Shown here: positions 59,062 to 62,407 of the stretch, piece after piece
Layout: every line of letters begins with the position of its first letter
Numbering within the stretch: position 1 is the stretch's first letter
NCBI RefSeq assembly: GCF_003171515.1
Contig: NC_089390.1
Coordinates: 8,436,274-8,500,273 of the forward strand
Source: Pyrenophora tritici-repentis
Taxonomy: Eukaryota; Ascomycota; Dothideomycetes; Pleosporales; Pleosporaceae
Direction: 5' to 3'
Length of the DNA stretch: 64,000 nucleotides
Made by a program: the position numbers and the translations under genes
Notes under the pieces: generated by a model
What the model saw: only the letters and a program-made list of their open reading frames with translations
The model's database searches: none
What the model was told of the DNA's origin: nothing

Positions 59062-62000
59062 TCATAGTGCGAGCCCAGTGCCATCACCAGTCCAGCGGTA
59101 GAGGCTCAACATTTCCCTGCGGCGCTGCTGCGCAAGCTCGGCATGCTCATCCATGCCGCGACCACGCACTTGCTGCAGGGTTGAACGCATCACCTTTCGG
59201 AAGTTCCGCTGTGGTTGCTTGTTAGCATGATCTACCAACCTCGGCTAAACTTGCTGAAACACTTACTTGGTATTCCGTGTTGAGGGTGACGATGCAGGCT
59301 TCATGCGCACGGACAATGACTTCACATGCTCGCACAATGTTTGGGTTGGCGTCTCCTTGCAGCTTGTCGGCAATGAGGAGCAACAGGAAGCTGCCCTGCA
59401 AAAGGTAGATGCCAAAGAAGAACGGCATGAAGCTCAGATCTGGGTCGTACTCTAGGATCTCATTGAGTGCTTCGGCAGCTGATACCGCATGGCCGGTGGC
59501 TTCAACGAAGCTTTGCGAGGATATCCAAAGGTCGTTGTCGTCCAGGAGTGAGATGGGATCCCATTTTCCATTCAGCAAGATGTGCAATGTGTGCATGAGA
59601 TGTGTACCATATGCTTCAACAATCTTGGCATGCATCAATGACTCCTGCGCCCTGGATATTGTAGAGTTCACAGACTGAACCGAAGGTGTACCCGGATGCA
59701 CCGGCTCTTCTGCATTTGCCTCGTTGACGGCGCGATTCCGAAGCTCTTGCAAGGATCGACCATAGGCATCCAGTTGCTGGCTGATCTCACGCGCATGATC
59801 GTCCCAGTCGGTCTTGGTACCGAATCGGGGATGGTTACGAGCATGATATAGGTCTGTGATTTCTCCGAGTATAGTCATCAGAGGAAGGAAAAATCCGAAA
59901 ATGGAGTGTCCGGTGCACTCAAAAGCAGGGCCTCGTCGGCGAAATGTGGAATCTGAAAACGGTTGAGCGGAAACCTCGAAGAACTCGCCAGATTGCCATA
60001 CGTTATCCTCAAGAGGCTGCATGAGACCTGAGCACTCCACGTCGAGTAAAGATAGAGGTCGGTTGTAGCATAACGCTAGGTGGCTGTTCAGCGATCAGCG
60101 TGTGTTGAGTTGGGCATTGGCTGAATGTGCTAAAACGTCGGAATGTGTCGAACGACATCTCTTGGTGTGTGCCACAGGTAACAAAGATCAGATGGCTTAC
60201 CGATCAACAGTGAACAGGAGCCACCATATACGTCTGCGCTCTTCTCTTTGTTCCTCAGTATAGTCGACGGGGGTGTTTTGGCCAGTCGGATAGCGTCTGC
60301 CCGTGTGTCCCGCATCAACATCTACCGGTGCATCGTCGTCGTTTGTCTCTGGTGGGGGTGTTACAGGCACCTCCTTGCCCAGCTTGAGCTCCCTCGCCAG
60401 TGACCATGCAGCGTTCCACCAACGGAGTGATGCAGCCTTGTACTCGCTTGCTGAGATGACAATGGCTAGATGCATATAAGTGGCTACATCGTCAAGTCCT
60501 CCTGGTGCTCCCGCTGTTGAAGTCAAAGTTAGTTTCCTAGCTAAAACCAGTGGGTCTGTGTCTGACTTACGTAGACCTATTTCGGAGTCATGTGTAGGCA
60601 TACCAAAAGCTCCCATGGTGACACCATTAACCATACCGCCATTGGCGAACGCCGTAGGACTACAGTCAGGGTCACCTGGTGTCTGATGCACAAGGGGTTT
60701 CAGGAGGCTGATGGTCAGGTTGATCAATCTCTCCGATAGCTGACTCCGTGCAGATGGCGATGATGACAAATATGGTGACTCGCTCGTCAAGCAGCCAATC
60801 CACAGCATACTGGCGAGTAGTGCTGGGCTGCACACGCGTGGGCTGTTTGTTCGAAGGAATGATCGTTTCCGGAAGACGTATCCGAGTACATATGGGGAGA
60901 CAGGTTGCATGAAAGCGGATGAGGAACTCTCAAAGTAGAGCTCTAGTAGGTCGCAGGCCAATGATAGGGGCATCATGTTTGCGATATGTGGGACTAACGG
61001 CTGCAAGACGGGGTACCTGAGTTGCTGAGAAGGGGTTTGGTGTGGTGCGCCTGAGTACATTGTTGTCGAGGGTGAAGGAATCATCCAACCGGGAGATGCA
61101 CCGACTGGTGATTGAGCCATGTAGCCCATGTTTGATTGTTCTTCTGCTATCCTAAAGGGGTTGGATGGTACCTGTCCATGTGCGCTTTGCGGGCTCATCA
61201 TGCTGTACGGGCTATCAGAATACTCGATACCGCGGTCATGGGAGGAAACGCCAGGGTGCATTCCTGGCTGCATCATTTGAAGTGGTGACTGGTACGCGAG
61301 GTTTCGGTGGTACTCTTCCATGGATGTGTATTCAGCCATGGGGTTGGGGTTGTGCATAGGCAGTCCGTCAGTCCGGATGCGATGTGGCTGCATGGGCTGC
61401 ATAGGGTGCATGCTCTCGCTCATCTGATGGTGCATGTCGACTTCTGGGATATTGTCAATAGCGCTCAGACTCATGGTCCTGTTTGGGTAGATTGGTGTCG
61501 TGTCCATGTCTGGCCTGGTTGTCGCGATGCTGGCTGATCGGCTTGGAAGTTCTGGAAGAGCTCTTTGGCCTTCAGGGAGCTTTGGACTCTTGGCTGCCTG
61601 TTTGGATTGGGGAACTTTCTCTGGGGCTTCTGGGGTGCTGGACTCTTCAGATTTGGGCGCGCTGTTCCCAGCAGCGGCGGCGGCAGCTTGCTGTTGGGCT
61701 ATGTCCTTTCGCGATGCCTTTCCGCGTTTCTTGCGCTCACGAATGTACTCGCACGTCAAGCCAAATTCTAACTTTGTGTTAGCGCAGCTGTCAAACATGG
61801 TAGTACTCGGGTAACGAGATATGGACGACAGCGCTAGCCCCTTGACCAAGGACCGCTAGCAGACGCTTCAGAAGACTATCCCGATGACGTCGCCAAACAG
61901 CCCGTCAGCATATTGCGGGGCTTGCAGCCTGTCGGTGCATGTCCCAAACGTACCTATACAATGCGCGCACTAGCCTGCACGTCAGTCGGTTGTGGGAGGA

Positions 62001-62407
62001 ATTGAGGGGTGGGGGAAGGGACTTACGGATTGTCTACCATCACACTTGGTACGCAATTGATTACACTGGTCACAGGCTCGGCTGATTCTGCGTCGTACCG
62101 GTCCAGACGTTGAATTGGCGCGACCTGATCGCTCTTGCAGCATGTCCCGATGGTTGCGAGGCGCTAGAGGGCCACTGGCGTAGGGCAGCCGATGGTTCTT
62201 GACGAGAGATTTGCCGCTAGGTAATACATGGCGGTTCTGGTGGAATTGCAGGGCAGCGTATTGTGATGTATGCGCCAGAGTGTCGAGGGGCGAATGTCCC
62301 ATGTGCGGGGCGGCGAGATGGTGATGCTGGTGCTGATGTTCGACCATGTTCGGGGCGGGGAGGTGGCTGAAAGCCGAGGGGTACTGATGGAGATTCGTGG
62401 AAAGCAT
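59062..62407 (-). CDS. xlnR: XlnR/Xyr1-type xylanolytic transcriptional activator
   Basis: Six exons (62027-62407, 61954-61969, 60571-61767, 60201-60513, 59267-60083, 59062-59208) give 956 aa. XlnR activates xylanase and cellulase genes. The Zn2Cys6 cluster is [12 protein letters not shown] plus DGRQSCAHCIEFGLTC: Cys112, 115, 122, 128, 131, 138, with C-x2-C-x6-C-x5-C-x2-C-x6-C spacing. A basic linker follows ([13 protein letters not shown]). The middle-homology region is present ([48 protein letters not shown]). The C-terminus NFRKVMRS...[15 protein letters not shown] is diagnostic. The second exon is only 16 nt and encodes CAHCI. The 57-nt intron 60514-60570 is in frame and stop-free. Confidence 0.95.
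61954..61969 (-). other. xlnR: 16-nt microexon of xlnR
   Basis: Flanked by AG (61971-61970) and GT (61953-61952), this exon encodes Cys-Ala-His-Cys-Ile plus one base. It supplies Cys128 and Cys131 of the zinc cluster and restores exact family spacing and phase on both sides. Confidence 0.88.

Follow-up and report, generated by a model that had tools for sequence, protein, structure and literature searches.

A lineage-wide, most likely constitutive microexon carries two zinc-cluster cysteines of XlnR in Pleosporales

XlnR is a main activator of xylanase genes, and often of cellulase genes, in filamentous ascomycetes. Microexons that are alternatively spliced in animals are usually multiples of three nucleotides in length and give two working proteins. 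The closest described counterpart of the arrangement reported here is found in Xlr2 of Trichoderma, in which a 20-nt microexon codes for the peptide PCRRCE and covers the same two zinc cysteines that concern us below (Castaneda-Casasola et al. 2024; PMC11121469). According to that report, the exon is present in T. virens RNA without glucose and gives a weak RT-PCR signal with glucose, and sugar-dependent retention of intron 1 has been described for T. reesei. The exon is missing from most Xlr2 gene models, and Xlr2 stands apart from Xyr1/XlnR in the authors' tree. For XlnR itself, we found no account of a microexon among the matches listed in open-licence PMC literature. No paper on the gene structure of Cochliobolus carbonum XLR1 was found there, and passages on XlnR and introns in Dothideomycetes contain nothing on a 16-nt exon. 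Passages on alternative splicing of A. niger enzyme genes and on re-annotation of A. nidulans transcription factors led nowhere, as did papers listed on exon skipping in Pyrenophora, and in the excerpted text of PMC5913888 the word microexon appears solely as a TopHat option.

The window, a stretch of 64,000 nt from the genome of a Pleosporales fungus, contains a six-exon gene on the minus strand (62407-59062) whose joined reading gives a product of 956 aa (Table 1). The protein matches the Pfam family Zn_clus (PF00172) at residues 110-147 with 32.2 bits against a cut-off of 21, and Fungal_trans (PF04082) with 56.3 bits, also above cut-off. The sequence-only reading had called the gene xlnR-type, and this is upheld by 50% identity over 939 aligned positions to P0334, an A. 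nidulans protein named xlnR by its source. Sequence relatives of the zinc cluster in the PDB (E <= 0.01) are PUT3 (two sequences), LAC9 and GAL4. Judged by its domains and full-length similarity, the gene is the xlnR of this fungus and encodes a predicted XlnR-type regulator. We rejected an identification as Xlr2: the protein aligns full length to A. nidulans xlnR, and a separate XLR2-like gene is present in the genome. The gene shares family and domains with the XlnR/Xyr1/Xlr1 regulators of ascomycetes, among which an intron at the intron 2 site is widespread. In the report on the xlnR of Valsa (PMC8928461) that gene has four introns, as against five here.

Table 1. Positions of exons, introns and splice-related motifs of the xlnR gene, numbered from the first letter of the window
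Feature	Position	Strand	Remarks
Exon 1	62027..62407	minus	381 nt; cysteines 1-3; ends ...CDGRQS, phase 0
Intron 1	61970..62026	minus	57 nt; GTAAGT...CTGAC...TAG
Putative branch point CTGAC, intron 1	61981..61985	minus	Motif match; 12 nt from its A to intron end; candidate function
Decoy acceptor CAG, unused	61975..61977	minus	7 nt from putative branch A; if used, exon of 21 nt and a stop
Exon 2, 16-nt microexon	61954..61969	minus	TGCGCGCATTGTATAG; C128 A H C131 I and first base of E133
Intron 2	61768..61953	minus	186 nt; GTACGT...CTAAC...TAG
Putative branch point CTAAC, intron 2	61778..61782	minus	Motif; matched in relatives
Exon 3	60571..61767	minus	1197 nt; sixth cysteine
Exon 4	60201..60513	minus	Joined gene reading
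Exon 5	59267..60083	minus	Joined gene reading
GTATGG...TTTTCAG segment in exon 5	59953..60001	minus	49 nt; possible exon-internal intron; counterpart missing in two relatives' sequences
Exon 6	59062..59208	minus	Holds stop codon

The second exon supplies Cys128 and Cys131, the fourth and fifth of the six zinc cysteines (CX2CX6CX5CX2CX6C). The exon and its two cysteines had been proposed earlier from the letters of the window; both are borne out, and all coordinates check. Both flanking introns have GT-AG ends, with the A of a CTRAC motif 12 nt (intron 1) or 11 nt (intron 2) from the following exon; CTRAY motifs lie at 15, 11 and 13 nt in the remaining three introns. Its 16 nt and the GT-AG introns on both sides make the exon, by its sequence, a microexon, if that term is taken to mean an internal exon no longer than about 30 nt that is flanked by spliceosomal introns. 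The string AG/TGY GCN CAY TGY ATH G/GT (slashes at the splice junctions) would be expected by chance with a probability of about 2e-8, given 240 positions and uniform bases.

Splice patterns were enumerated from about 62127 to about 61642 with introns of at least 35 nt, allowing GT or GC donors in one-intron joins and GT donors in two-intron joins. None of the 1,224 one-intron joins combines an open frame with the six-cysteine pattern, and a one-intron model that skirts the microexon is rejected on this count. Among the 35,666 two-intron joins 22 do so, all taking the intron 62026-61970. In 21 of them the internal exon ends at GTTTGG, GTCATC or GTCTTC within intron 2 and the resulting sequence is unlike XlnR; a single join yields XlnR sequence. 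The frame dependence first suggested for the exon is borne out; in the enumerated joins, six cysteines in an open frame require an exon start at 61969. A sequence at the end of intron 2 that seems to echo the microexon was also considered and rejected: it comes from in-frame reading of the putative branch point CTAAC, which appears as ANT or ADT in relatives.

The sequence-only reading held that skipping the exon would make an XlnR without DNA binding. The letters predict a different outcome: exon 1 joined to exon 3 adds three foreign residues (...CDGRQSNLA-stop) and ends as a stub of 130 aa, in which no Pfam family is found at E <= 0.001. If the decoy CAG five bases upstream were used, the exon would lengthen to 21 nt and finish with a stop (133 aa); transcripts that keep intron 1 or intron 2 would likewise run into early stops, after 141 and 160 aa. 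The decoy is likely left unused because only 7 nt separate it from the putative branch A, as against 12 nt for the TAG that is used. Some joins to other AG acceptors are predicted to keep the frame without the microexon, the nearest following AAAG with an exon start at 61771. The exon resembles the alternative microexons of animals, which PMC11121469 describes in passing, in being a very short exon between spliceosomal introns. It differs from a frame-preserving alternative microexon, a multiple of three that allows two full proteins, in its length of 16 nt and in the stop that follows after 130 codons when it is lost. Retention of intron 2 would happen to restore a sixth cysteine, so that the 160-aa protein would have a complete zinc-cluster pattern. 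Conservation of this accident was rejected, the sixth cysteine being restored in 7 of 78 intron-2 read-throughs of relatives.

The introns of relatives were read from public unspliced ORF proteins that run through introns, and the classes given here are defined by translated letters rather than by DNA. Two sets of relatives were used: one (120 listed of 923 matches) supplied nearly all the rows that read from intron 2 into exon 3, and the other (120 listed of 351 matches) the exon-1 fragments. Intron 1 appears to lie directly before the cysteine codon, as in the window, in 13 of the 120 listed exon-1 fragments, which would make a 16-nt exon. It appears one base earlier in another 13 (17 nt), four bases earlier in 9 (20 nt) and perhaps two bases earlier in 3 (18 nt). 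By contrast with the interrupted window gene, 70 of the 120, relatives outside the group with intron 1, read straight through CDG..C.HC into intron 2; the rest comprise 2 joined rows, 3 unclassified and 7 outside the core pattern. Three of these last seven (P0140, P0142 and P0156) enter an intron after RTK and before CDG, 19 nt further up, which would leave an exon of about 35 nt with three of the six cysteines; P0140 continues in frame into RCDGRQSCAHCIG. In P0167, one of the unclassified rows, and in P0031, from the set of 923 matches, an intron begins immediately behind CDG. Read-through stays in frame in six rows of the 17-nt class and shows S-C-A-H-C-I-G. None of the lengths 16, 17, 20 and 35 nt is divisible by three, so the frame is disrupted whenever such an exon is lost. 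The earlier remark that an exon of 16 nt is very short to be recognized is a fair one; yet exons of 16-20 nt would be present in 38 of the 120 listed fragments, and the splicing machinery of these fungi evidently copes with them.

Reading from intron 2 into exon 3 was seen in 39 rows (38 among the 120 listed of 923 matches, one from the exon-1 search). Four residues ahead of E-F-G, N or D stands in 35 of these 39 rows (32 when the 36 distinct sequences are counted), which is what a branch point CTAAC or CTGAC would translate to in that frame. Elsewhere between -1 and -12 each position has between 0 and 3 such residues, apart from -8, where there are 17. The microexon peptide is present in the named models P0001, P0002 and P0006. 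It is present as well in P0003, which lacks introns 1 to 4 together with a stretch of 49 nt that other relatives have as coding sequence; on the simplest reading, P0003 is probably a spliced cDNA. We conclude that the 16-nt exon is real and common to related fungi. As a separate observation, the counterpart of the 49-nt segment in exon 5 is absent from P0001 (an Exserohilum turcicum model) and from P0003, both of which shift frame and end early, and is kept in P0005 and P0012. This segment may represent a second, C-terminal alternative splice event in XlnR.

The history of the two introns was examined on two trees, both quick and built from few columns: one of 156 N-terminal pieces cut before the trait, and one of 133 rows cut further upstream, which admits the 35-nt and unclassified types (44 rows with intron 1, 70 without). 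On the first tree, presence or absence of intron 1 takes 3 changes and its subtypes take 8. All but one of the 39 intron-1 rows, including the window, share a single group of 50 rows (support 87, not starred), which has members from Alternaria, Exserohilum, Plenodomus, Setomelanomma, Dothidotthia and Didymellaceae. Sporormia, also of the Pleosporales, adjoins this group among the rows without intron 1. The second tree takes 2 changes for presence or absence, or 1 when the long-branch rows P0191 and P0177 are left out of the count. On the first tree, intron 2 is also present in rows distant from Pleosporales, and it appears to be widespread and old. Taxonomic order was checked for four species; the placement of the remaining species in orders is presumed. 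The pattern is consistent with intron 1 having been gained once, within Pleosporales, and having shifted afterwards, which would have produced exons of 16, 17, about 18, 20 and 35 nt. The 19-nt range of its places is large for sliding, and there may have been more than one gain.

The likeness to Xlr2 is close at several points (PMC11121469). Xlr2 of T. virens, like the window gene, encodes a Zn2Cys6 regulator of the XlnR group whose microexon holds cysteines 4 and 5, is overlooked by gene finders and breaks the frame when lost (20 nt). The downstream introns share codon and phase, interrupting the second codon past the fifth cysteine after its first base (TGT GAA G/ in Xlr2, TGT ATA G/ in the window). 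The two differ upstream: the Xlr2 exon of 20 nt reads P-C-x-x-C-x and that of the window, with 16 nt, C-A-H-C-I, the upstream intron of Xlr2 lying 4 nt further off. In this the Xlr2 layout matches the 20-nt class proposed for Didymellaceae XlnR and not the window. Moreover, Xlr2 is a paralogue, whereas the window gene is of the xlnR kind, and the glucose dependence was reported for Xlr2.

The genome that contains the window has an XLR2-like gene of its own (L012; C1:717749-717907 and neighbourhood, minus strand), whose zinc cluster is uninterrupted (CDHCHRMRTRCNGQAPCSRCIELEYVC). Some sources name its close relatives xylanolytic transcriptional activator 2, and the best of these include Pyrenophora teres at 92% identity, so the source of the window is probably a Pyrenophora-like fungus. 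If L012 is taken to be orthologous to Trichoderma Xlr2, the split and unsplit paralogues are swapped relative to the Trichoderma report, and since the L012 cluster is uninterrupted, separate origins of the upstream introns are probable. An ancient upstream intron that was lost several times may be an alternative. Among relatives of L012, the named models P0242 and P0253 are without the zinc-cluster exon. In Didymellaceae, the XLR2-like sequence P0285 passes straight from RCN to ELEYVC and P0281 begins immediately ahead of SPCSRCIE, as though a short exon with the CSRC piece were present in these genes.

We consider it likely that the microexon of XlnR is constitutive, that every functional XlnR mRNA must contain it, and that it acts as an error-prone bottleneck in splicing rather than as a switch between protein isoforms. 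This reading is supported by the unique six-cysteine frame, the four alternatives that give stops, the introns of relatives, the branch-point-like residue in 35 of 39 rows and P0003. Intron 1 would have arisen upstream of the older intron 2 in an ancestor within Pleosporales, its place varying afterwards. Splicing could proceed by intron definition, one intron being removed first so that the microexon fuses to an exon of normal size before the other intron is taken out, and the spacing from branch point to AG would disfavor the decoy CAG. Mis-splicing would give mRNAs with stops, and because these are presumably degraded the site would be at most a quantitative bottleneck on XlnR output.

Regulation by carbon source, with the exon unspliced on glucose through retention or skipping and spliced in on plant polymers so as to set the level of DNA-binding XlnR, seems unlikely to us, although it has a precedent in T. 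virens Xlr2, whose overexpressed forms are reported to differ in enzyme activity (PMC11121469). The two genes share the same two cysteines and, by codon comparison, the same downstream intron place, and the early stops would make an effective off state. However, the precedent concerns a different paralogue, the fungus's own XLR2-like gene has no intron in the cluster, the splice signals in the window look ordinary, and the T. virens authors saw no reads joining exons 1 and 3 (PMC11121469). The switch idea is best treated as a possibility with precedent in a paralogue, not as a finding. That XlnR in Pleosporales and Xlr2 in Trichoderma had the same two cysteines split off independently because a splicing checkpoint is useful, with carbon status setting mRNA passage and the amount of activator, is likewise an unlikely proposal.

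Rare splice forms might instead give stable partial proteins that compete with XlnR, either the 160-aa product of intron-2 retention (CIGTFGTC) or the form from the AAAG acceptor without the two cysteines. Both frames are open in the window, but the restored cysteine of the former is not conserved, and the latter depends on a non-standard acceptor less than 10 nt from the putative branch point; we find this very improbable. That the string is a chance match and no exon, the true gene having another splice pattern or being a pseudogene, is scarcely credible despite its very small size and the models P0004, P0005, P0007, P0012 and P0071 that bypass it, given the chance probability above, the failure of every other enumerated pattern to yield a proper XlnR cluster, the recurrence of the peptide in relatives and in P0003, probably a cDNA, and the lengthwise alignment of the rest of the protein to A. 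nidulans xlnR.

Database annotation of this region is uneven. Among the matches listed, 16 rows are NCBI-named XlnR of Pleosporales, of which half, 8, retain the six-cysteine pattern and the other 8 lack it; the count covers lengths up to 1.75x the query (929 aa) and sets aside the unnamed NCBI-linked fragment P0044, and since longer models, such as full ones of 956 aa, fall outside it, the defective share is biased upward and the true share is probably lower. Five of the defective rows, the same five that bypass the exon, lose the microexon region, and the other three (P0047, P0048 and P0051) keep the C-S-H-C piece and lose the end of exon 1. Models that bypass the microexon could in part be real transcripts. 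With 8 of 16 listed models lacking an intact cluster, surveys may report XlnR without a DNA-binding domain in these fungi.

In much of Pleosporales, the DNA-binding domain of XlnR would hang on an exon of 16-35 nt that gene finders can miss. Failure to include this lineage-wide microexon, which is most likely constitutive, would silence the product of the XlnR gene. The repeated split in XlnR and Xlr2 would offer a clean test of whether such a microexon serves as a metabolic checkpoint or reflects awkward intron placement.
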